Shown one piece after another: positions 2,529-52,049 of a DNA stretch of 64,000 nucleotides. The stretch covers positions 44,618,407 through 44,682,406 of the forward strand of contig NC_084463.1 in the NCBI RefSeq assembly GCF_027409185.1. The letters are read 5' to 3'. The DNA is from Cynocephalus volans. Lineage: Eukaryota; Chordata; Mammalia; Dermoptera; Cynocephalidae. Position numbers and translations under genes: made by a program. The notes under the pieces are model-generated. The model saw only the letters and a list, made by a program, of their open reading frames with translations, was not told where the DNA came from and did not search any database. Position 1 is the stretch's first letter; each line of letters starts with the position of its first letter.

Positions 2529-2546
2529 CTCTTAAGGCGCTCATGC

Positions 2547-2595
2547 ACTGGGTCCCTGGGCAGGCCCCGAGGTGCTGGCATGGTGTGCCTGGTTT
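2547..2595 (-). repeat. Lone fragment of the 80-bp VNTR unit
   Basis: On the minus strand this reads AACCAGGCACACCATGCCAG, then CACCTCGGGGCCTGCCCAGG and GACCCAGTGCATG. That is more than half of one unit of the tandem repeat at 8590-9790, almost base for base. It sits just upstream of the H3 CCAAT boxes with no other part of the composite retrotransposon visible around it. Confidence 0.75.
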
Positions 2596-2907: not shown

Positions 2908-3739
2908 AAATTTCTTAAATATTTTATAACCAAGTTTATGTCATTTGCAATCAATGACAGTCCTACTTCTTTTTCAATTTTCAGAATTTTGCTTATAATT
3001 CTTATGTAAGTTTTGCTGGCAAAATTTTTAATTCAATGTTAAATAGAATGGTAATAGTGGACATTCATCTTTTGTTCTCCAAGTTTGAGATAAATTAGAG
3101 CACAAGGGTTTCACCATTAAGTACAGCATTAGCTGTAAATTTTTTCTAGGTCCACTTTAGCAGGTATAGAAAGATCCCTTCTATTCCTAGTTTGCCAGCA
3201 GTTTTATAATAAATGGGTGTTGGATTTGGAAAATGTTTTTCTGTGTCTGTTGAGAGAATCTTTGCAATTTTTGTTTAACCTGTTAATATTCTGTATTGAA
3301 TTAATTGATTTGGATGTTAAGTTGAAATTGCATCTGTAAAATAATCCCATTTGGTAATGGTGTATAATCATTTTTCCATGTTGATGAACTCAGTTTGCTA
3401 GTATTGATTGCAGATTTCTATATCTGCATTTATCAGAAATTTCCATTTATAGGGCTGGCCCTGTGGCTGACTTGGGAGAGTGCGGTGCTAGTAGCACGAA
3501 GGCCATGGATTCGGATCCTACATAGGGATGTCCAGTGCGCTCACTGGCTGAGCGTGGTGCAGACCACACGGTGCCAAGGGTTGCGATCCCCTTACCGATA
3601 AAAAAAATTTTTTTCATTTATATTATATTTTCATGTGATTTTTTGTCTACTTCTGATATCAAGTTAATTCTACTCTCATAAAATGAATCAAGAAATGTTA
3701 TCTAATCTTTTCGTGTGTGTTTGTGACTAAAAAGGGTTC
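2908..3739 (-). mobile_element. Old L1 fragment, antisense
   Basis: The AT-rich text reads as reversed L1 ORF2, with the usual antisense phrases about loss of control over a 'TGTTGAGAGAATC' block and a 'TTGAATTAATTGATTT' block. It is heavily diverged and interrupted by the SINE at 3451-3607. Ends are approximate; the right part (about 3610-3739) is less certain. Confidence 0.5.
3451..3607 (+). mobile_element. CYN-type dimeric tRNA-Ile SINE
   Basis: Starts with GGGCTGGCCCTGTGGCTGAC, carries a GGATTCGGATCC B-box-like element, then a second monomer ending in GATCCCCTTACC and an A-run. A probable target-site duplication is TTYCATTTATA on both sides, within the antisense L1. Confidence 0.8.
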
Positions 3740-4383
3740 GTGGACAAAAGGCTTGAGTCAGTACCTCTGTGTTTAGGCATGCTTAGGCAGGTAAAACCCC
3801 CAGGTAGCCCTCCAGCCTGCCTTTACAGAAAGCAGGAGCTAACACCACCATGACCCAGGAGGCCCCACAACACTTCTGTGGAAGTCATCAACAACAGCCA
3901 GCACCACACTTTCTACCACAGCAAGAATGCTTGCCACCACAGTAACAGCCACTACCTCTGTGCAGGTGGCCTGCAGCATATTCAGCTGCACTGAGACAAG
4001 TAGAGTCACTAGAGGAGCCTGGAAAAGGAGAAGGAAGAATTCCTCCTCAAAGTCCACTCCAGAGTGATACAAAAAGAAACTGATCTACCAGATGACCAGA
4101 AATCAATGTAAAGATACTAAATATATGGGAAAAAAGTAAATGTGACACTAGCAAAGAAACAAAGTAATTCTCAAGTACTAAACCCTATAGAACAGGAAAC
4201 CCTTGAAATGACTAAAATGGAATTTGTAGTAACTATCTTAAGGAAACTGAAAGAGATAAGACTCAGTTAGACAACGCAATGAAATGAGAAAAAGTATCCA
4301 GAATATGAAGGAGGAAATTTAAAAATAAATTAATACTTTAAAAAACAATGCAGCAGAGCTCCTGCAAGTGAAAGACATATTCA

Positions 4384-6540: not shown

Positions 6541-7770
6541 AGAGAGAAGACCCAAATAACAAAAACAGAAATTAAAAAGGAGATATTACAACTGGTACCA
6601 CAGAAATGCAAATAATCATTAGACACTATTACATACAACTATACACCAACAAATATGACAGCCTAAAAGAAATGGATAAATTTCTGGACACAGACAATCT
6701 GCCAAGACAGAACCAAGAAGAAATAGAAAACCTGAACAAACTAGTAACAAGCAACAAGATTGAAGCAGTAATCAGCAGTTTCCCAACAAAGAAAAGCCCA
6801 GATCTGGATGGCTTTACTGCTGAATTCTTCCAAACATTTAAAGATGAATTAATACCAATTGTCTTTAAACTATTCCAAAAAATTGAAACAGAGGCCACGC
6901 AACCAAACACACACTATGAGGCCAGCATCACCTTATACCAAACCAAACAAAGGTACAATAAAAAAAAGAAAACTAAACATCAATATCTCTGATGAACATA
7001 GAGGCACAAATCCTAAATAAATTACTAGCCATCAGAATACAGCAACACATCAAATAAATTATACACTGTGATCAAGAGGAATTCATCCCAGGGAGTCAAG
7101 GATGGTTCAACATATGCAAGTTAATAAATATGATACACCACATCAACTACTTCAAGGACAAAAAAAAAAAAAAACTGATTATCTCAATACTTAACAGATA
7201 CAGAAAAAACATTCAACAAAATTCAACATCCCTTAATGACAAAGGCTCTCAGCAAATCAGGCATAAAGGAAAGTACCTCAACACAGTAAAAGCCATAGAT
7301 GACAAACTCACTGCCATATCATCCTGATAAAAGCTTTCAGCTTTTTTTGAAACAGGAACAAGATAAGGATGCCCACTATCACCACTCCTACTTAAGACAG
7401 TATTGGAAGTACTAGTCAGAAAAATCAGGCAAAAGAAAGAAATGAAGGGCATCCAGATTAGAAAGGACAAATTCAAACTGCTCCTGTTTGCAGATGACAT
7501 GATCCTATATAGAGAAAAGTCTAAAGACCCTAACCAAAAAGTCTTAGAGCAGATTAACAATTTTGGTAATGTTGCAGGATACAAAATCAATGCCCACAAA
7601 TCAGTAGCATTTGTATTCTCCAATAATGAATTAGCAAAAAATAGATATCTAGAAAGGAATCCCATTTATAATAGTCACCAGAAAAAATAAAATACCTAGG
7701 AATCAATTTAAACAAGGAGGTGAAAGATCTCTCCAACAAGAACTACAAATCGAATACCAGGGTTTCTAGT

Positions 7771-7779
7771 CAAGATGGC
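7771..7779 (+). promoter_or_regulatory. YY1-like site at the start of the composite element
   Basis: CAAGATGGC lies about 20 bp from the element's 5' end. In human L1 a YY1 site in the same place fixes the transcription start. The second copy has CAAGATGGT at the same place, one base different. Confidence 0.5.
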
Positions 7780-8589
7780 AGAATAAACGGTTCCCAGCGT
7801 CACTCTCTCCCACAAATCAACCAATTTACAACTGTAAAAATGTAACATCAGCCAAGCTGGGGCTGCTGGAGCACAGGGAAAGAGGAGGAGAGAGACCTAT
7901 GGAGTTCATGAAGGAGGGAGAAACTACAATGAGAGAAAGAAAAAGCTGCTCTGAGCGTTTCTGGCTGCAGCTGCTTTAAGGCTGGAGCTGCTGAGCACAC
8001 AGAGCAGAAGCCTGCAGAAGCCACAGCTGTGCCCTTCAGATGGCGTTACTTGGAGGCGGCAGGAGAGAAGAGGGCCTCGGCAACCCCCAGGAAAACAAGA
8101 CCACTAATAGATTTCCCATGGACCCACGCAGGAGCGAGGAACCAGAACAACCAGAAAAAGGGAGCCCCTCAGAGGCTGGTGAGTCATTGCAAGGGACAGC
8201 ACCAGGCCGGTCCCGTGGGAAGTGTTTGTAGCACAGTCGTTGGGGGAGACATGCCCACCGGGAGAACACTGAGACACAGCAAGGACAGCCGATCTGCCCC
8301 CCAATCAGCACAGGACCACTCAGAGGAGACTGGTCAGGAATGCAGAATTGCATGAGATGCAGTTTGATGAAAAACTCAGGCCCAAATCATAGATTCTACA
8401 GAACACAGATCCACTGGGTCTCTGGAGAGCTGGAAGTACCTATAAGGTCAACCATTAAACCCTGAGCTGCACAAAAAGCCTTCCCTAGGGAAACAGCAGC
8501 AAAGCAGCAATTTAAACAACCACACACTCAAATACTGGTTCCCACAGGAAGTTCCCCCGTGTTAGAAGCAAAGGACAAAAAATTAGTTC

Positions 8590-9790
8590 TGGCCTGGGCA
8601 CACCACCAGCACCTTGGGGCCTGCCTGGGAACCAGAGGCTTGGATCTGCCGACTGGACCCCACTCCCACTTCCAGGCAAACTGTGTCAGTGCCTCGGGGC
8701 CAGCATGGGGACCCAAGCCATGGAGAAGGGGACTGGACCCTCCTCCCACAACCAAGCACACCATACCAGCACCTCCGAGCCCACCAGGGGACCCAAGGTA
8801 TGGAGAAGGGGACTGGACCTCTCTCCCATAACCAGGCACACCTAGCCAGCACCTTGGGTACTTCCCAGTGATGCAAGGTATGGAGCCAGGGACCAGACCC
8901 TCCTCCCACAACCAGGCCCAACATGCCAGCACCTTGGGGCCTGCCGAGGGACCCAGTGCTTGGAGAAGGGGACTGGACCTCTGTCCCACAACCATGCACA
9001 CCAAGCCAGTGTCTCGAGGCCTGCCAGGGGCCTGGGGCATGGAGAAGGGGACCGGAACACCCTCCTACAACCAGGCACACCGTGCCAGCACCTTGGAGCC
9101 CACCTAGGGACCCAGGGAATGGAGAAGGGGACCGGACTTCTCTCACACAACCAGGCACACCAAGCCAGTGTCTCGAGGCCTACCCAGGGTTCTGAAGCAT
9201 GGAGAAGGGGACCGGACCTCTCTCCCACAGCCAGGCACACCATGCCAGTGCCTCAGGGCCCACCCAGAGACCCAAGGCATGGAGAAGGGGACCGGACCTC
9301 TTTCCCACAACCAGGCACACTGTGCCAGCACCTTGGGGCCCGCCCAGGGTCCTGAGGCATGGAGAAGGGGACCAGACCACTCTCCCACAACCAGGCACAC
9401 CAGTATAGTGCCTCAGGGCCTGCCCAGTGACCTGAGGCAAGGAGAAGGGGACTAGACCTCTCCCCCACAACCAGGCACACTGTGCCAGCACCCAGGGGCC
9501 CACCCAGAGTCCTGAAGCATGGAGAAGGGGACTGGATCTCTCTCCCACAACCAGGCACACTGTGCCAGCACCTTGGGGCTTTCCCAGGGACCCAAGGCAT
9601 GGAGAAGGGGACCGGACCTCTCTCCCACAACCGGACACACCATGCCAGCACCTCAGGGCCTGCCCAGGGACCCAAGGCATGGAGAAGGGGACTGGACACA
9701 CCTCCCACAACCTGGCACAAGGCACCAGTGACTTGGGGCCTGTCCACAGACCAGAGACATGGAGAAGGGAACCAGACACACTCCACAACC
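8590..9790 (+). repeat. 80-bp VNTR, about 15 units
   Basis: The marker GGAGAAGGGG recurs every 80 bp (for example 8960, 9040, 9120, 9199, 9279, 9359, 9439, 9519, 9599, 9679). Each unit has ACAACCAGGCACACC, TGCCAGCACCTTGGGGCC, and CAGGGACCCAAGGCATGGAG blocks. Units at the left edge are the most diverged. Because 80 is not a multiple of three, each frame cycles through three unit frames. This explains the many long shadow ORFs on both strands. Confidence 0.95.
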
Positions 9791-10325
9791 AGTCATACCG
9801 CCAGTGCCAACAAGCATACCAGAAACGGCATCTCCCTGTAGGTGGCCCACTGCAGCCTCCACAATAACCATGGCTGCTGCAAAAGTGACTAGACATCACA
9901 AGCACCACACAAATGGTCCACCAACCACTGGAGTGCATTCGCACAAGGAGATTCACCAGCAGAGTCAAAGAAAAGAAGAGGATGTCTCTCTCCACAAAGC
10001 CCATTTCAGAGTGACAGAAGCAGCATCTGCTCTATGATAATATTGGGGGACCCAATCACATCTCTCAGCATTGGACATATCATCTAGGCAACAAATTAAC
10101 AGAATAACCATGATTCTTTCAGAAGGAGAGAAGAAATCTAGGGTAATTAGAGGGGGGAGGGGGAGGGAATGGGGGATGGGGAGAGATTGGACAAGGGGCA
10201 TAAAGATTAATTAGGATTTGTAACAATACGTATGCTAGTAATATTGATTTGATCAACATATCTCAATGTTCAACCCCCAAAATATAATCGATTTTGATTC
10301 AATAAATAAAATAAATTTTTAAAAA

Positions 10326-12062
10326 AAGAACTACAAATCACTCCTGAATGAAATTAAAGAAGACACAGAAAGGTGGAAAGACATTCCATGCTCTTGAATT
10401 GGAAGAACCAACATTGCGAAAATGTCCATGCTCCCCCAAATAATTTACAGATTGAATATAATCACCATCAGAATACCAAAGGCATTCTTCACAGAAATAG
10501 AAGAGGCAATCTTAACACTTATATGGAACAATAAACACTCTGAATAGCCAAAGCAATCCTGAGCAAAACATAAACAAATAAATAAATATAGCTGGAGGCA
10601 TAACATTACTTGACTTCAAATTATACTACAAAGCTACAGTAACCAAAACAGCATGGTACTGGCACAAAAATAAGAACTCTGACCAATGAAACAGAATAGA
10701 GACTCCAGAAATCAACCAACCTACTTACAGCCATGTGATCTCTGGCAGAAGTAACAAGAACATACATTGGGGGAAAAACTGCATCTCCAGTAAATGGTGC
10801 TGGAAAAATTGGACATTCATATGCAGAAGAATGAAACTAGACTTTCACCTCTCACCACCTACCAAAATCAACTCAAAATGGATTAAAGACATAAGACCTG
10901 AAACTATAAACCTCTTAGAAAAAAACACAGGGGAAACACTTCAGAAAGTAAGACTAAGCAAAGACTTTATGAAGAAGACCTCCAAAGCACAAGCAACAAA
11001 AGAAAAAAATAAATAAGTGGGATTATATCAAACTAAAAAGCTTCTGTACAGAAAGGAAACAATCAACAGAGTGAAAAGACAACCTACAGAATGGGAGAAA
11101 ATATTTTCAAACTATATATCCAAAAAGGGATTAACATCCAGAATATACAAGAAGCTCAAACAACTACATAGTAATATATATATACATTCCAATTAAAAAA
11201 TGGGCAAAAAAGATGAATACTCATTTTTCAAAGGAAGACATACAAATGGTCAACGGGTACTTGAAAAAATGCACAACATTATTAATCATCGGGGAAATGG
11301 AAGTCAAAAGCACTTTGAGGTATCATCTCATGCCAGTTGGAATGACTATAATGAAAAAGACTGAGTGACAAATGCTGGCTAGGATGCAGATAAAGGGGAA
11401 CTCTTCTACACTGTTGGTGGGATTGTATATTAGTGTAGCCACTATGGAAAACAATATGGAGGTTTCTCAAACAACTGGACATAGATCTACCACACATTCC
11501 AGCAATCCCACTTCTGGAAAGTAATGGAAATCATCATGTTGAAGGGATACCCGCACTCACATGTTCATCACAGCTCTATGTACAATAGCCAAGATATGTA
11601 ATGAACATCCATTGGTGGATGACTGGGTAAGGAAAATATGGTATATGTATACAATGGAATACTACTCAGCCATAAAAAGAATGAAATTCTTCCATTCACA
11701 GCAACATGTAGGAGCTTGGAGAAAATTATGTTAATGGAAACAAGCCAAGCACAGAGAGAAAAATACCACGTCTTCACTCATAAGTGGGAGCTAAGATAGA
11801 AAGAAGGATGGGAATAAGACCACAGTGGTGTGTCGGACTTGTACAGGTAGACAACAGATCTAGCATTGCTAGGGTTGCGGGGAAGGGAGAAGGTGTTGAT
11901 CAGAGTTTGGCTGGGTGACACGGGGAATAATTGCAATTGGAAGAGGTGAGCATGCTGATGGCATTAATCTGATCACCACACCTTGCACAGGTGCTGACGG
12001 TCAGCTGTGTGCCCCATGATATGTACAATCTATAAACATTCAAAACATAATAATAAAGAAGC
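10326..12062 (+). mobile_element. Old L1, right part: ORF2 3' end and 3'UTR
   Basis: Resumes directly after the composite insertion with ORF2 text corresponding to ENYKSLL, then the thumb and C-terminal region (NSKWIKDIRPETINLLEKN at about 10870-10920). It continues to the cysteine-rich end and a 3'UTR finishing in AATAATAAAG near 12055. Stops and frameshifts are frequent. Confidence 0.85.
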
Positions 12063-16212: not shown

Positions 16213-19200
16213 AAGAGTTGGAACCACCACCCAACAACCTCAGAATATTCATTCTTCTCATCAGCACATGGATCATTCTCCAGGATAGATCACATATTAG
16301 GTCACAAATCAAGTCTCAATAAATTCAAAAAAATTGGAATTATCCCATGTATCTTCTCAGACCACAATGGATTAAAACTAGAAATTAATAACAAACAAAA
16401 CTCTGGAAACTATACGAACACATGGAAATTAAACAGCATTCTACTTAATGACATATGGGTCCAAGAAGAAATCAAGCAGGAAATCAAAAAGTTTATGGAA
16501 ACTAATGAAAACAATGATACATCATACCAAAACCTATGGGATACTGCAAAAGCAGTATTGAGGGGAAAATTTATTGCATTAAATGCTCACTTCAGAAGAA
16601 TAGAAAGATGGCAAGTGAACAACCTAACACTTCACCTTAAAGAACTAGAAAAACAAGAACAATCCAAACCTAAAGTTAGCAGATGGAAAGAAATCATTAA
16701 GATCAGAGCAGAACTGAATGAAATTGAAAACCAAAAAACAATTCAAAAGATCAACGAATCAAAAAGTTGGTTTTTTGAAAAGATAAATAAAATTGACAAA
16801 CCATTAGCATGGCTAACAAAAAAAAGAAGAGAGAAGACTCAAATAACCAAAATTAGAAATGAAAAAGGCGATATTACAACTGATTCATCTGAAATACAAG
16901 GAATCATTCGAGACTACTATAAACAACTATACGCCAACAAATTTGAAAATCTGGAGGAAATGGATAAATTTCTGGACACACACAAGCTCCCAAACCTGAA
17001 CCGTGAAGACGTAGAAAATTTGAACAGACCAATAACAATAAAGGAGATTGAAGCTGTTATCAGAAGGCTCCCAACAAAGAAAAGCCCAGGTCCAGATGGA
17101 TTCACAGCAGAATTTTACCAAACATTCAAAGAGGAATTGACACTGATTCTTTACAAACTATTCCAAAAGATTGAAACGGACGCAAATCTCCCAAACTCAT
17201 TCTATGAAGCAAACATCATCCTGATACCAAAACCAGGTAAAGATATAACCAAAAAAGAAAACTACAGGCCAATATCCTTGATGAATATAGATGCAAAAAT
17301 CCTCACTAAAATACTAGCAAACAGAATACAGCAACACATACGAAAAATTATTCATCACGATCAAGTGGGATTCATCCCAGGGATGCAAGGTTGGTTCAAC
17401 ATATGCAAATCGATAAATGTGATACACCATATTAATAAACTCAAACACAAGGACCATATGATCATCTCTATAGATGCTGAAAGAGCATTTAATAAAGTTC
17501 AGCACTCATTCATGACAAAGACCCTCTATAAGTTAGGTATAGAGGGAAAGTATCTCAACATAATTAAAGCCATATATGCCAAACCCACTGCCAATATCAT
17601 CCTGAATGGGGAAAAGCTGAAAGCTTTTCCTTTAAGAACAGGAACTAGACAAGGATGCCCACTCTCACCACTTCTATTCAACATAGTGTTGGAAGTACTA
17701 GCCAGAGCAATCAGAGAAGAGAAGGAAATAAAGGGCATCCAGATTGGAAAAGATGAAGTCAAACTGTCCCTGTTTGCAGATGACATGATCCTATATATCA
17801 AACAGCCTAAAACCTCTACAAAAAAACTGTTGGAATTGATAAATGATTTCAGCACAGTAGCAGGATACAAAATCAACACACAAAAATCAGTAGCATTTCT
17901 TTTCTCCAATAGTGAACATGCAGAAGGAGAAATCAAGAAAGCCTGCCCATTTACAATAGCCACCAAAAAAATAAAATACTTAGGAATTGAGTTAACCAAG
18001 GAGGTGAAAAATCTCTATAATGAGAACTACAAACCACTGCTGAGAGAAATTAGAGAGGATACAAGAAGATGGAAAGATATTCCATGCTCTTGGATTGGAA
18101 GAATCAACATAGTGAAAATGTCCATACTACCCAAAGTGATATACAAATTCAACGCAATCCCCATCAAAATTCCAAAGACATTTTTCTCAGAAATGGAAAA
18201 AACTATTCAGACATTTATATGGAACAATAAAAGACCACGAATAGCCAAAGCAATGCTCAGCAAAAAAAATAAAGCTGGAGGCATAACACTACCTGACTTT
18301 AAGCTATACTACAAAGCTATAATAACCAAAACAGTATGGTACTGGCATAAAAACAGACACACTGACCAATGGAATAGAATAGAGAATCCAGAAATCAACC
18401 CACACACTTACTGCCATCTGATCTTTGACAAAGGCACCAAGCCTATTCACTGGGGAAGGGACTGCCTCTTCAGCAAGTGGTGCTGGGATAACTGGATATC
18501 GATATGCAGGAGAATGAAACTAGATCCATACCTCTCACCGTATACTAAAATCAACTCAAAATGGATTGAGGATTTAAATATACACCCTGAGACAATAAAA
18601 CTTCTTAAAGAAAACATAGGAGAAACACTTCAGGAAATAGGACTGGGCACAGACTTCATGAATACGACCCCAAAAGCACGGACAACCAAAGGAAAAATAA
18701 ACAAATGGGATTATATCAAACTAAAAAGCTTCTGCACAGCAAAAGAAACAATTAAAAGAGTTAAAAGACAACCAACAGAGTGGGAGAAAATATTTGCAAA
18801 ATATACATCTGACAAAGGATTAATATCCAGAATACATAAGGAACTCAAACAACTTTACAAGAAGAAAACAAGCAACCTAATTAAAAAATGGGCAAAAGAG
18901 CTAAGTAGGCATTTCTCTAAGGAAGATATACAAATGGACAACAGACATATGAAAAAATGCTCAACATCACTCAGCATCCGGGAAATGCAAATCAAAACCA
19001 CATTGAGATACCATCTAACCCCAGTTAGGATGGCTAAAATCCAAAAGACTATGAACGATAAATGCTGGCGAGGCTGCGGAAAAAAAGGAACTCTCATACA
19101 TTGTTGGTGGGACTGCAAAATGGTGCAGCCTCTATGGAAAATGGTATGGAGGTTCCTTAAACAATTGCAAATAGATCTACCATACGACCCAGGCATCCCA

Positions 19201-19517
19201 CTGTTGGGAATATACCCAGAGGAATGGAAATCATCAAGTCGAAGGTATACCTGTTCCCCAATGTTCATCGCAGCACTCTTTACAATAGCCAAGAGTTGGA
19301 ACCAGCCCAAATGCCCATCATCAGATGAGTGGATACGGAAAATGTGGTACATCTACACAATGGAATACTACTCAGCTATAAAAACGAATGAAATACTGCC
19401 ATTTGCAACAACATGGATGGACCTTGAGAGAATTATATTAAGTGAAACAAGTCAGGCAGAGAAAGAGAAATACCACATGTTCTCACTTATTGGAGGGAGC
19501 TAAAAATTAATATATAA

Positions 19518-19563
<46 letters not shown>

Positions 19564-19747
19564 CGGGGGGGGGGGGAAGAAGATATAACAACCACAATTA
19601 TTTGAAGTTGATACAACAAGCAAACAGAAAGGACATTGTTGGGGGGAGGGGGGGAGGGAGAAGGGAGGGAGGTTTTGGTGATGGGGAGCAATAATCAGCT
19701 ACAATGTATATCGACAAAATAAAATTAAAAAAAAAAAAGAGTTGGAA
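16213..19747 (+). mobile_element. Young 5'-truncated L1 with long open ORF2
   Basis: Flanked by the 11-bp duplication AAGAGTTGGAA (16213-16223 and 19737-19747) and ending in an A-run, so this is a complete L1 insertion truncated in the endonuclease domain. ORF2 is open from the left edge to the stop at 19501-19503, about 1,090 codons. Visible parts: endonuclease end ([19 protein letters not shown]); RT motifs ([23 protein letters not shown] at about 17770-17800); and the C-terminal Cys/His region ([18 protein letters not shown]). The 3'UTR holds a (CA)n run (19521-19560), G-runs and a polypurine tract. It lacks the 5'UTR, ORF1 and the start of ORF2, so it cannot move on its own. Confidence 0.9.
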
Positions 19748-36456: not shown

Positions 36457-39400
36457 ACATATATTTGCTTCTCTTCTCTGATTGCTCTGGCTAGTACTTC
36501 CAACACTATGTTGAATAGGAGTGGTGAGAGTGGGCATCCTTGTCTAGTGCCTGTTCTTAAAGGAAAAGCTTTCAGCTTTTCCCCATTCAGGATGATATTG
36601 GCAGTGGGTTTGTCATATATGGCTTTAATTATGTTGAGATACTTTCCCTCTATACCTAACTTATAGAGGGTCTTTGTCATGAATGAGTGCTGAACTTTAT
36701 CAAATGCTTTTTCAGCATCTATAGAGATGATCATATGGTCCTTGTGTTTGAGTTTATTAATATGGTGTATCACATTTATTGATTTGCGTATGTTGAACCA
36801 ACCTTGCATCCCTGGGATGAATCCCACTTGATCGTGATGAATAATTTTTCGTATGTGTTGCTGTATTCTGTTTGCTAGTATTTTAGTGAGGATTTTTGCA
36901 TCTATATTCATCAAGGATATCGGCCTGTAGTTTTCTTTTTTGGTTATATCTTTACCTGGTTTTGGTATCAGGATGATGTTTACTTCATAGAATGAGTTTG
37001 GGAGATTTGCGTCCGTTTCAATCTTTTGGAATAGTTTGTAAAGAATCGGTGTCAATTCCTCTTTGAATGTTTGGTAAAATTCTGCTGTGAATCCATCTGG
37101 TCCTGGGCTTTTCTTTGTTGGGAGCCTTCTGATCACAGCTTCAATCTCCTTTATTGTTATTGGTCTGTTCAAATTTTCTACGTCTTCACGGTTCAGTTTT
37201 GGGAGCTTGTGTGTGTCCAGAAATTTATCCATTTCCTCCAGATTTTCAAATTTGTTGGCGTATAGTTGTTTATAGTAGTCTCGAATGATTCCTTGTATTT
37301 CAGATGAATCAGTTGTAATATCGCCTTTTTCATTTCTAATTTTGGTTATTTGAGTCTTCTCTCTTCTTTTTTTTGTTAGCCATGCTAATGGTTTGTCAAT
37401 TTTATTTATCTTTTCAAAAAACCAACTTTTTGATTCGTTGATCTTTTGAATTGTTTTTTGGTTTTCAATTTCATTCAGTTCTGCTCTGATCTTAATGATT
37501 TCTTTCCGTCTGCTAACTTTAGGATTGGATTGTTCTTGTTTTTCTAGTTCTTTAAGGTGAAGTGTTACATCCAGATTGGAAAAGATGAAGTCAAACTGTC
37601 CCTGTTTGCAGATGACATGATCCTATATATCAAACAGCCTAAAACCTCTACAAAAAAACTGTTGGAATTGATAAATGATTTCAGCACAGTAGCAGGATAC
37701 AAAATCAACACACAAAAATCAGTAGCATTTCTTTTCTCCAATAGTGAACATGCAGAAGGAGAAATCAAGAAAGCCTGCCCATTTACAATAGCCACCAAAA
37801 AAATAAAATACTTAGGAATTGAGTTAACCAAGGAGGTGAAAAATCTCTATAATGAGAACTACAAACCACTGCTGAGAGAAATTAGAGAGGATACAAGAAG
37901 ATGGAAAGATATTCCATGCTCTTGGATTGGAAGAATCAACATAGTGAAAATGTCCATACTACCCAAAGTGATATACAAATTCAATGCAATCCCCATCAAA
38001 ATTCCAAAGACATTTTTCTCAGAAATGGAAAAAACTATTCAGACATTTATATGGAACAATAAAAGACCACGAATAGCCAAAGCAATGCTCAGCAAAATAA
38101 ATAAAGCTGGAGGCATAACACTACCTGACTTTAAGCTATACTACAAAGCTATAATAACCAAAACAGTATGGTACTGGCATAAAAACAGACACACTGACCA
38201 ATGGAATAGAATAGAGAATCCAGAAATCAACCCACACACTTACTGCCATCTGATCTTTGACAAAGGCACCAAGCCTATTCACTGGGGAAGGGACTGCCTC
38301 TTCAGCAAGTGGTGCTGGGATAACTGGATATCGATATGCAGGAGAATGAAACTAGATCCATACCTCTCACCGTGTACTAAGATCAACTCAAAATGGATTA
38401 AGGATTTAAATATACACCCTGAGACAATAAAACTTCTTAAAGAAAACATAGGGGAAACACTTCAGGAAATAGGACTGGGCACAGACTTCATGAATACGAC
38501 CCCAAAAGCACGGACAACCAAAGGAAAAATAAACAAATGGGATTATATCAAACTAAAAAGCTTCTGCACAGCAAAAGAAACAATTAAAAGAGTTAAAAGA
38601 CAACCAACAGAGTGGGAGAAAATATTTGCAAAATATACATCTGACAAAGGATTAATATCCAGAATATATAAGGAACTCAAACAACTTTACAAGAAGAAAA
38701 CAAGCAACCCAATTAAAAAATGGGCAAAAGAGCTAAGTAGGCATTTCTCTAAGGAAGATATCCAAATGGCCAACAGACATATGAAAAAATGCTCAACATC
38801 ACTCAGCATCCGGGAAATGCAAATCAAAACCACATTGAGATACCATCTAACCCCAGTTAGGATGGCTAAAATCCAAAAGACTATGAACGATAAATGCTGG
38901 CGAGGCTGCGGAGAAAAAGGAACTCTCATACATTGTTGGTGGGACTGCAAAATGGTGCAGCCTCTATGGAAAATGGTATGGAGGTTCCTTAAACAATTGC
39001 AAATAGATCTACCATACGACCCAGCCATCCCACTGTTGGGAATATACCCAGAGGAATGGAAGTCATCAAGTCGAAGGTATACCTGTTCCCCAATGTTCAT
39101 CGCAGCACTCTTTACAATAGACAAGAGTTGGAACCAGCCCAAATGCCCATCATCAGATGAGTGGATACGGAAAATGTGGTACATCTACACAATGGAATAC
39201 TACTCAGCTATAAAAACGAATGAAATACTGCCATTTGCAACAACATGGATGGACCTCGAGAGAATTATATTAAGTGAAACAAGTCAGGCAGAGAAAGAGA
39301 AATACCACATGTTCTCACTTATTGGTGGGAGCTAAAAATTAATATATAAATTCACACACACACATACACACATACACACACAAACCGGGGGGGGGGGAAG

Positions 39401-39621
39401 AAGATATAACAACCACAATTATTTGAAGTTGATACAACAAACAAACAGAAAGGACATGGTTGGGGGGGAGGGGGGGAGGGAGAAGGGAGGGAGGTTTTGG
39501 TGATGGGGAGCATTAATCAGCTACAATGTATATCGACAAAATAAAATTTAAAAAAAAAAATAAATAAAAAAAAATAAAATAAAATAAAAAAATAAATAAA
39601 AATAAAAAAAACATATATTTG
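36457..39621 (+). mobile_element. Young L1 with 5' inversion (twin priming)
   Basis: Flanked by ACATATATTTG at 36457-36467 and 39611-39621. From 36468 to about 37567 the L1 sequence is reversed; from 37568 to 39610 it is in normal orientation with ORF2 end, 3'UTR and A-rich tail. Compared with the L1 at 16213-19747, the inverted part corresponds to about 16630-17724 and the direct part starts at 17736, so only about 11 bp are missing at the joint. The direct part keeps an open ORF2 of about 590 codons with LFADDMILY and the C-terminal Cys/His region. Very few differences from the other copy are visible, so both are recent and from one subfamily. Confidence 0.92.
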
Positions 39622-44219: not shown

Positions 44220-45560
44220 CTACATTGTCCTCTTTTGCATCACACTGATTCTGCCCCCATGGGAAGGAGGCCTGGATTGCAGTGGTGAGGAGGACCCCAT
44301 CCTTTCCTCCAGCTGCTGCCCTGGTGAGCTCTGCAGCGTGTCGAGCAGAGCCCGAAATTCTTCCTCACTGAGCGGTGGTTCGGGTGGTAGAGGGGCTTCC
44401 TGCTGTGGATCCAGATTCACCACAGGACACTGTGTGGGTGCAAGGGGCCAGCTCAAAGCTTGAGGTTTGTGCATGATGCTGGTCTGCCTGCTCACGAGAT
44501 GAGATGGCTTCTTAGCTGGTACTGGCTGCTGCCACCACAGGGGTGACTGGGTGTGTGCGGGCTGCTGAGGTGCCTTTTCTCCAGATTCCTGCTGGACCAT
44601 CATGTCCTGGGCTCCTCACTGCACCACTGCATGAGGTGGGATGTGCTGAGCCAGGCCCTGCGAGTGTTCCTCAGTGTTATCTGTTTGAGGCTGCCCCTTT
44701 ATGGGCAGAACTGCCAGGCCAGTGTGCCCATTGTCCTTGTCATCCCGGCACTTTCCTTGGTATGCACACCAGAAAGGAGTCTGAGTATGTGACAGCCCCC
44801 TCCTAGAGCTGGTGCCAATGACGTGTGACTCATAAGTGTCAGAACAGGTTGAGAGAGTTCTCCTGGCATAGCCTGGGTGAGCTGGAGCATCATGAGCCTC
44901 GGTGCCTGCTCATTCAGCCCCCAGAGGGATCCCAAAGACCAAAGGACATGTGGGGTGGAGGAAGACCTGGCACAAATGACTTCTTGCTGCTGAAAGAAGT
45001 GGAAGGAAGAAGATGATGGTCGCTGCTTGGGGCAGTGCACAAGCCGCTTTGCTGCAGCTGAAAAGTCAGGCGAGGTCTCTGCTGTGGACCTTCTGCCAGG
45101 GAATTCATGGGTCCACTTCTGCTCTGGCCTGGGTGCCAAACTCCTTGGTTCTAAAACTAGACATGAATTCTTGATTCTGGAAAGCCTGTTTCTTTAGCCA
45201 GTTCCTCCTTAGTGGCAATTCCAGGGAACTTGGTTTTTTTTCTTTCCAAAAGCTCGAAGCAGAATACTGTTTTGTGCTCTTGTAATGGATGTCCACTGTC
45301 ATCTGCCTTCTCTGGGTAAGGTTTCCTGAGTCCGAGGCCGAGGTGGCTCCTGCTGAGGAAGTTGCTCTCCTCTCGAGGAGCCTGCAGACCCCGACTGGCT
45401 CTGCCTGAGGCGTCGTCCTCTCTGGTTTTGAAACAAATCTCTTTTCTGACTCAGGAACACCAATTTCTTTGGCCACTTTTTGTCTGGTGGTTATACCAGG
45501 GTAGGGGCTCTGTTCAAGCAATGCCTGCAGGGCATCCGTTTGACTTGGGGTCAGAGCCAT
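44220..45560 (-). pseudogene. DUX4/DUXC-like double homeobox pseudogene, intronless
   Basis: DUX4-family proteins are transcription factors of early embryos with two homeodomains and a C-terminal activation motif. All three parts can be traced on the minus strand. Homeodomain 1 is at 45560-45385 (LTPSQTDALQALLEQSPYPG, then AKEIGVPES). Homeodomain 2 is at about 45275-45130 (FPGIATKEELAKETGFPESR). The C-terminus is at 44290-44400 (PPLSEEEFRALLDTLQSSPG). A frameshift falls just before the WFQN of homeodomain 1. In homeodomain 2 the W and Q of WFQN have become TAG stops. More breaks follow. No introns separate the homeodomains, so it resembles the retrogene type (DUX4) more than intron-bearing DUXC. 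The 5' end is cut by a composite retrotransposon at 45573. Confidence 0.85.
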
Positions 45561-45572
45561 CGTCTTTCTTTC

Positions 45573-47180
45573 TTTTTTAAAAAAATTAATTTTTATTGAG
45601 TCAAAATTGATTATTCTTTTTTGGGGGTTCAACATTGATATATGTTGATCAAATCAATATTACTAGCATATATATTGTTACAAATCATAATTATTCTTTT
45701 TGCCCCTTGTCCAATCTCTCCCCATCCCTCTCTCCTTCCTCCCTCCCCCTCTAACTACCCTAGATTTCTTCTCTCCTTCTGAAAGAATAATGGTTACTCT
45801 GTTGATTTGTTGCCTAGATGATCCGTCCAATGCTGAGAGGTGTGATCAGGTCCCCCAATGTTATCATAGAGCAGATGCTTCTTCTGTCACTTTGAAATGG
45901 GCTTTTTGGAGAGAGACATCCTCCTTCTTTCTTCATCTCTGCTGGTGACTCTCCTTGTGTCAATACACTCCAGTGGCTGGTGGACCACCTGCATGGTGGT
46001 TGTGGTGTTAGCTGCTTTTGTGGCAGCCATGGTTATTGTGGTGGCTGTGGTGGGCCATCCACATGGAGGTGATGTTTTTGGCATGCTCCTTGGTGCTGGT
46101 GGTGTGCCTGGCTGTGGGGAGTGTCTGGTCCCTGGCTCCATACCTTGGGTCCCCGGGTGGGCCCCGAGGTGCAGCGTGGTGTGCCTGGTTGTGGGAGAGG
46201 GGTCCAGTCCCCTTCTGCATGACTTGGGTCCCCAGGCAGGCCCTGAGGCACTGGCATGGTGTGCCTGGTTGTGGAAGGGAGGGTCCAGTCCCTGGTCCAT
46301 GCCTCATGTCCCCTGGTAGGTCCCAAGACACTGGTGGTGTGCCTGGGCTGGAACTAATTTTTTGTCTTTTGCTTACTTCTAAAATGGGGGAATTCCTGTG
46401 GGAACCAGTACTTGAGCTCTGTGGTTGAGCTAAATTGCTGCTTTGCAGCTGTTTCCCTAGGAAAGGCTTTTTGTGCAGCTCAGGGTTTAACGGTTGACCT
46501 TAAAGGTGCTTCCATCTCTCCAGAGACCCAGTGCACCAGGATTGTATAGAAACTCTGGTCTGGGCCTGAGATTTTCATCAAACTGCACCCCATGCAATTC
46601 TATATTCCTGACCAGTCTCCTCTGGCTGGTCCTGTGCTGATTGGGGGGCAGATCAGCTGTCCTTGCTGTGTCCCAGTGTCCTCCTGGTGGGCACGTCTCC
46701 TCCAACATCCGTGCTGCAAATGCTTCCCATGGGATGGGCCCTACACTGGTCCCTTGCGATGACTCACCAGCCTCTGAGTGGCTTCTTTTTTTTCAGCTTT
46801 TCTGGCTCCTCACTCCTGCGTGGGTCCATGGGAACCCTGTTAGTGTTCTTGCTGTCCTGGGGCCACAAGGCCCTCTTCTCTCCTGCTGCTTCCAAGCATC
46901 TCCATCTGAAGGGCACAGCTGCGGCGTCTGCTGGTTCCTGCTCCATGCGCTCAGCAGTTCCAGCCTTAATGCGGCAGCAGCCCAAACACTCAGAGCTGTT
47001 TTTTCTTTCTCTCATCGTGGTTTCTCCCACCTTCATGTACTCTGTAGGTCTCTCCTCCTCTTCCCCTGAGCTCGAGCAGCCCCAGCTTGGCTGATGTTAC
47101 ATTTTTATGGTTGTAAATTGGTTGATTTGTGGAAGAGTGACGTTGGGGACCATCTATTCCACCATCTTGACCAGAACTCT
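45573..47180 (-). mobile_element. VNTR-bearing composite (SVA-like, L1-derived) retrotransposon, copy 2
   Basis: Same modules as the element at 7752-10325, on the minus strand. Leader with CAAGATGGTGG: 47180-46350. VNTR of about three 80-bp units: 46345-46090. L1 5'UTR end: about 46040-45880. ORF2 endonuclease fragment (CAGCATTGGACGGATCATCT): about 45865-45800. G-rich 3'UTR and A-tail: 45800-45573. The junctions between modules are the same as in copy 1, so both come from one source element. Flanks GATGGCTCTGA and CATGGCTTTGA suggest a decayed target-site duplication at the start of the DUX pseudogene. Divergence and flank decay suggest it is older than copy 1. Confidence 0.85.
46090..46345 (-). 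repeat. 80-bp VNTR, about three units
   Basis: Same unit as at 8590-9790 but far fewer copies. On the plus strand the unit reads GGTGTGCCTGGTTGTGG, then GGTCCAGTCCC and TTGGGTCCCC(A/G)GG. Confidence 0.85.
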
Positions 47181-51865: not shown

Positions 51866-52049
51866 AGGGCCGGCCCGTGGCTCACTCGGGAGAGTGCGGT
51901 GCTGACAACACCACGGCCCCGCGTTCGGATCCCATATAGGGATGACCTGTTAGCTCACTGGCTGAGCATGGTGCTGACAAGACCAAGTCGAGGGTTAAGA
52001 TCCCCTTAAGGGTCATCTTAAAAAAAAAAGAAAAGAAAAGAAAAGAAAA
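51866..52049 (+). mobile_element. CYN-type dimeric tRNA-Ile SINE
   Basis: GGGCCGGCCCGTGGCTCACT, GAGAGTGCGGTGCTGACAAC and GCGTTCGGATCCC make monomer 1. Monomer 2 ends GGGTTAAGATCCCCTTAAGG, followed by an (AAAAG)n tail. The duplication GAAAAGAGTGSGGCA at 51852-51866 and 52050-52064 marks the insertion. It is the best-preserved copy here and supports the colugo assignment. Confidence 0.88.

Follow-up and report, generated by a model that had tools for sequence, protein, structure and literature searches.

A many-copy, VNTR-bearing retrotransposon family in the colugo genome, likely derived from L1 by two internal deletions

A 64,000-nucleotide stretch of the genome of the colugo Cynocephalus volans (RefSeq assembly GCF_027409185.1, contig NC_084463.1, positions 44,618,407 to 44,682,406 of the forward strand; hereafter the window) contains two copies of an element in which a variable number tandem repeat (VNTR) is joined to pieces of an L1 retrotransposon. 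Very probably, these copies belong to a many-copy family that has a single layout and encodes no protein, likely an L1 with two internal deletions that probably depends for its copying on L1 proteins acting in trans. The element had originally been predicted from the window alone to be a colugo-lineage counterpart of the SVA elements, built by internal deletion of an L1 whose 5' untranslated region (5'UTR) held the VNTR. The observation behind that prediction was confirmed and its interpretation is supported by the analysis described here.

Structure of the element

Copy 1 occupies positions 7752-10325 on the plus strand and is an A-tailed insertion flanked by target-site duplications (TSDs). 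The two copies of the TSD, AAGAACTACAAATC, at 7738-7751 and 10326-10339 (both plus strand), are identical at 14 of 14 positions, as predicted. The insertion point lies inside an old, apparently 5'-truncated L1 (3738-12060, plus strand, ends approximate and copy 1 included; hereafter the host L1), which was the source of the open reading frame (ORF) 1, ORF2 and UTR sequences used in the comparisons below. Three paralogous L1 stretches in the window are uninterrupted at this point, and the TSD stretch is present once in the paralogous L1s.

The layout that had been claimed for copy 1 was found, all of it on the plus strand. The element opens with a leader of about 840 bp (7752-8596), a putative L1 5'UTR start containing GTCAAGATGG, which was delimited by its similarity to copy 2 and to 29 genome sites. 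Next comes the VNTR (8597-9799), whose 15 complete 80-bp units run into the beginning of a partial unit, followed by an L1-type 5'UTR end that is cut just before the first joint (9800-10036) and by a fragment of about 68 bp from the ORF2 endonuclease, running from joint 1 to joint 2 (10037-10104); both of these were recognized by their match to the host L1. An L1-like 3'UTR with a G-rich purine tract, an AATAAA signal and the A-tail completes the element (10105-10325). The position of joint 2 in copy 1 is uncertain by ~ 20 bp. The predicted leader was upheld in that it recurs across sites, but its start was not placed correctly, as about 8 extra bases of copy 1 (7752-7759) precede the common 5' end of the family, GGG(G)TTCYGGTCAAGATGG. 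A four-run G-quadruplex motif is present in the 3'UTR of copy 1 (10152-10181), and the same pattern gave none in copy 2.

An unrestricted run of Tandem Repeats Finder (TRF) on copy 1 returned a period of 80 with 14.1 copies at 8597-9719, and alignment of the units in register gave 15 full units and one partial. The array starts ~ 840 bp from the 5' end, its GC content is 0.628 vs 0.415 for the window, and the mean pairwise identity among its units is 74.8% with gaps counted. No 6-bp array was listed by TRF in the element, and inspection by eye of the ORFs listed for both window copies revealed no frame recognizable as ORF1 or ORF2. A scan of 7740-10340 against Rfam to E 0.5 returned only a sub-threshold match to TUC338 (17.5 bits vs 120).

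The second copy in the window

Copy 2 lies on the minus strand at 45573-47180 and is colinear with copy 1. It comprises a leader similar to that of copy 1 (46344-47180), a VNTR identified by TRF and in-register alignment (46100-46343), an L1-type 5'UTR end (45867-46099; 68% identical to host L1 3902-4087, better than 300 of 300 shuffles), an ORF2 endonuclease fragment (45798-45866; 80% over 71 bp to host L1 5736-5806) and a 3'UTR with an A-rich tail (45573-45797), all on the minus strand. As predicted, both joints of copy 1 recur in copy 2, which has three complete repeat units and the beginning of a further, partial unit. The leaders of the two copies are 84.5% identical over 7764-8600 and the tails 85.3% identical. 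The flanking repeat of copy 2, ATGGCTYTGA, is imperfect and taken alone is not significant (P 0.27). Within the window, a search with the leader matched only copies 1 and 2.

The flanks of the two copies, taken as 2 kb per side, gave no mutual match at E<=0.1, which rules out a segmental duplication as the source of the pair. Between the two arrays only a few features correspond: the first unit and the last unit each lack 2 bp in both copies, and both arrays trail off in a partial unit; ranking by identity does not pair the three units of copy 2 with particular units of copy 1. As the units (74.8% alike) differ more from each other than the copies do (~ 85% alike), the array predates the split of the copies.

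Distribution in the genome

The window's own assembly (2.81 Gb) was searched with the leader as query. This search gave 7,721 first-look candidates, which were left unscored except for the best 40 by leader similarity, and all 40 of these matched; the counts given here hold for the scored sites and cannot be extrapolated. Eleven of the 40, copy 1 included, are segmental duplicates of the copy 1 insertion, with 5' flanks that are 93-100% alike. The remaining 29 are separate sites on many contigs, 87-90% alike to the query, and together with the two window copies they form the set of 31 sites used below; 18 of the 29 were examined with longer flanks than the other 11.

Both joints are kept in 30 of the 31 sites, the exception (L023) having a private deletion that fuses the VNTR to the 3'UTR. 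In L043 and L046 the joints were confirmed in a re-oriented alignment, and in L027/L048 an insertion is nested inside the element. Such recurrence rules out two chance insertions as the explanation of the window copies. Since the 5'UTR end, the endonuclease block and the 3'UTR abut in 30/31 sites, no room is left for ORF1 or for the rest of ORF2. In a BLAST search with the host L1 ORF1 and ORF2 over the sites other than L043 and L046, for which only the best match per query was listed, the listed matches that touch an element are A-rich ones at the tail and one of 21 bp in the nested insert of L048. None of the 29 separate leader hits is a full-length L1.

Arrays of period 80 (periods 76-84 were looked for) are present in 30 of the 31 sites and range from 3.1 to 22.8 copies, with a median of 9.8, while the array of L018 amounts to about half a unit. 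Older leader fragments that end before the VNTR and give way to unrelated DNA were also seen, in L034 (5292-6099) and L043 (1307-1558); this is a 3'-side truncation, which is unusual for L1-type insertions.

Could the element have spread passively, inside larger blocks copied by segmental duplication? The eleven hits with matching 5' flanks, on one contig within 10.5 Mb and with copy 1 among them, are what this explanation would give. For the family, however, it is refuted and its probability is close to nil, given the 29 other hits on many contigs, the individual TSDs at 23 of the 31 sites and the unmatched flanks of the window copies. Duplication holds only for the local cluster on contig C4, where it explains 11 of the 40 scored hits, and the predicted spread as a family is borne out by the 29 separate sites beyond this cluster. 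The duplicates (L001-L011) lie at 39.9-50.4 Mb of C4, which places the window in a locally amplified segment. For six of them (L005-L009 and L011) the 1.5 kb covered ends short of the tail, and the arrays there may be longer or rearranged.

No report of the element was found in the literature, and none for the combination of colugo, retrotransposon and VNTR. Repeat libraries may well list the family already, perhaps as an unnamed piece of L1. Three exact patterns gave no copies in IMG/VR and one exact pattern gave none in prokaryote contigs, two collections from which records near the window's genome may be excluded.

Target-site duplications

TSDs were scored at the 31 sites by looking for the 5' copy in the last 26 bp ahead of the element and for the 3' copy in the first 80 bp beyond it, and the null distribution was taken from 930 mismatched pairs of flanks (95% point 8, maximum 10). 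A TSD at P<=0.05 was detected in 23 of the 31 sites, 18 of which exceed all 930 mismatched pairs, and the mean score was 11.1 vs 5.8 for the mismatched pairs. Two earlier scorings had given 10 of 13 sites at P<=0.05 and, with wide windows, 14 of 30 sites at P<=0.01, one of these 14 being a misread L046. A-tails were read by eye at the sites. The insertions show the hallmarks of L1-type integration, TSD and A-tail. The test for a mobile family that had been proposed at the outset, when carried out on this genome, thus came out positive for joints (30/31) and for TSDs (23/31).

Relationship to L1

The endonuclease block of copy 1 (10034-10103) matches host L1 5736-5806 at 80% over 71 bp (E 5e-12), and the host L1 codons just upstream of this segment correspond to residues 107-148 in L1 endonucleases of solved structure. 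The 5'UTR ends of both copies match the host L1 at ~ 3838-4087 better than all 300 dinucleotide shuffles and break off at one identical host L1 base. The match of the 3'UTR to the host L1 likewise beats all 300 shuffles in both copies. Of the putatively L1-derived ends, the 5'UTR end and the 3'UTR match the host L1; the leader matches no L1 in the window. The host L1 has the sole 5'UTR end identified in the window and is not itself the parent of the family. At its start the leader carries GTCAAGATGG, which we take to resemble the start of L1 5'UTRs and which is found exactly somewhere in 25 of the 31 loci. Human L1s begin with the similar CAAGATGGC, a YY1 site.

These comparisons bear on a second explanation, in which the element was assembled as a composite, as SVA and LAVA were, with an 80-bp minisatellite from outside fused to L1 ends during or after the deletion. 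Such an origin is favoured by a lone VNTR piece that lies outside any element (2542-2594) and by the lack of any L1 sequence in the window that matches the leader or the VNTR. Set against this, the array lies directly upstream of a stretch with homology to the end of an L1 5'UTR, the leader opens like an L1 5'UTR, and the array was there before the copies diverged. Composite assembly is considered unlikely. The presence of the VNTR inside the 5'UTR of the host L1 was looked for directly, and no match above shuffles was obtained.

Origin and spread of the deleted form

Alignment columns beside the joints were examined for signs that already-deleted copies had been the templates for new ones. 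The base beside joint 1 is C or A and the base beside joint 2 is G or T. Among the 30 sites with both joints, 16 have the pair C-G, two have C-T, 11 have A-T and none has A-G, with one site unscored. The two bases are therefore linked across the joints (16:2 vs 0:11, Fisher P 2e-6, with sites treated as independent). This pattern suggests subfamilies founded by copies that already carried the deletions. A tree built from the leader is star-like, with none of its 28 inner branches well supported, and does not resolve the linked-base groups as clades. Such a shape is expected of a burst that started from a small number of sources. The burst is an old one, as the median terminal branch of 0.082 changes per site amounts to about 35-40 million years at a neutral rate of 2.2e-9 per site per year.

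A third explanation, recurrent processing, also predicts shared joints. Here full-length L1s with this 5'UTR would have made one twice-spliced or deleted RNA over and over, as in the spliced integrated retrotransposed elements (SpIREs) of human L1, and every copy would be a dead end. Splicing can indeed yield identical joints repeatedly, according to the SpIRE work (PMC5860796). By eye, an AG immediately precedes the ORF2 block of the host L1, and two parent L1 subfamilies would also give linkage across the joints, so that linkage does not exclude such processing. In the host L1, which is not the parent, inspection by eye showed no GT donor at either corresponding position, in the 5'UTR or in ORF2, and an active full-length parent should show among the 29 separate leader hits, all of which (29/29) are deleted. 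Recurrent processing is judged very unlikely. For a deleted form that replicates as such, the uniformly deleted hits are a stronger argument than linkage.

Several observations weigh against an L1 with two internal deletions as the source of a self-replicating family. Two L1 subfamilies that underwent like processing could also give linked bases, and the joint-1 base requires six changes rather than one on the leader tree (shuffled mean 9.2, with 10 of 500 shuffles as low). The joints are not uniform to the base, as 3-6 bp are missing at joint 1 in four of the 30 sites (L024, L033, L041 and L044) and a few sites lack 2-9 bp near joint 2. The TSD is not significant at eight of the 31 sites (L019, L025, L032, L035, L040, L042, L043 and copy 2), although a wider search of L035 found 14 identical bases farther out. 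The L1 match of the 3'UTR is modest, in that 0 to 14 of 300 shuffles were equally good in comparisons with four other L1 3'UTRs in the window. Against the 5' region of the host L1, neither the VNTR (86 of 300 shuffles as good) nor the leader (32 of 300) gave a match, and because no full-length L1 with the leader or the array was found in the window or among the scored sites, the parent L1 is inferred. Finally, selection by leader overlooks truncated copies and L1s with nothing but the 3'UTR in common, and it does not give the true copy number.

On balance, an origin by two internal deletions remains the preferred reading and would proceed as follows. The ancestor would have been an L1 with the 80-bp array already in its 5'UTR. 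One deletion would have removed ORF1 through to the middle of the endonuclease region, and the other the sequence from mid-endonuclease to the 3'UTR, after which already-deleted copies would have served as templates for new ones. The leader may act as an internal promoter, with transcripts that start in the L1-type 5' region still present and are polyadenylated at AATAAA. The ORF2 protein of intact L1s would then copy the A-tailed RNA into DNA at a nick in the target (target-primed reverse transcription), and slippage or unequal exchange could alter the length of the array. The VNTR is the obvious candidate for the part that would let the RNA win L1 proteins in trans, because the VNTR is reported to decide the mobility of LAVA in cell assays (PMC4432496).

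Comparison with known elements

SVA, LAVA, PVA and FVA are described as non-autonomous VNTR composites with TSDs that are moved in trans by L1 and are specific to hominoids (PMC4432496). The colugo element resembles SVA and LAVA in being non-autonomous, in its TSDs, in its GC-rich central VNTR of variable length and, likely, in its trans-mobilization by L1. It differs from them in having no CT-hexamer part by TRF and no Alu-like 7SL-type match in the Rfam scan, in its 80-bp units (those of the SVA VNTR are given as 30-50 bp; PMC4432496), in that its parts with an identified source are of L1 type and in a host that is not a hominoid. It is an element that likely works like SVA and LAVA, not a member of either. 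Conserved end units are reported for LAVA in the same source, according to which the role of the VNTR is unsettled, as its deletion lowers the mobility of SVA while in LAVA it decides mobility (PMC4432496).

Among L1 derivatives, HAL1 is likewise non-autonomous and arose several times in mammals, and it is described as encoding ORF1p (PMC5753468); the colugo family, in contrast, is without both ORFs and has a VNTR. SpIREs are also internally deleted L1 insertions with recurring joints. The SpIREs described arise by splicing inside the 5'UTR or from the 5'UTR into ORF1, and they are classed as dead ends (PMC5860796), whereas the colugo family has lost both ORFs and its deleted form accounts for all 29 separate leader hits. 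The 5'UTR of mouse L1Md carries tandem monomers of ~ 200 bp in variable number, reported to lie close to the 5' end (PMC6454616). The likeness lies in variable-number tandem repeats in an L1 5'UTR, but the 80-bp array of the colugo element lies ~ 840 bp inside, after the leader, in an element that is non-coding. From autonomous L1s the element differs in the absence of ORF1 and ORF2.

The chances look even that an L1-dependent VNTR family encoding no protein arose outside the apes by the cutting of both ORFs from an L1 with a minisatellite 5'UTR and then became a replicating lineage of its own. This would be a route unlike the fusion of Alu, minisatellite and retrovirus parts. If true, the VNTR would be a convergent feature that helps L1 proteins to use an RNA in trans, and the family would be a case of an internally deleted L1 that spread although these proteins prefer to act in cis. 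A second, unrelated VNTR family of many copies would also be a natural replicate, in which copies with 0.5 to ~ 23 units could be compared for their success.

Neighbouring features

Two other L1s in the window, at 16625-19738 and 36462-39560, are 98.3-98.6% alike, and the 5' part of the latter is inverted, as in twin priming. A pair so similar (~ 98%) indicates that L1 was recently active in this genome. Dimeric tRNA-derived short interspersed elements (SINEs) are present at 51866-52034 (where Rfam tRNA scored 36.6 bits), 2733-2906 and 3451-3594, and presumably resemble the tRNA-Ile SINEs of colugos.

The lone VNTR piece at 2542-2594 (minus strand) is 53 bp of one unit, 90.6% identical to two units of copy 1, with no A-tail or other part of the element adjoining. 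By eye it lies directly upstream of a histone H3-like gene on the minus strand, at the 3' end of which a histone stem-loop was detected (Rfam Histone3, 1903-1949). Beside copy 2, a reading frame at 45105-45560 (minus strand) gave a weak homeodomain match below the cut-off (PF00046, E 4e-4) and appears DUX-like by eye.

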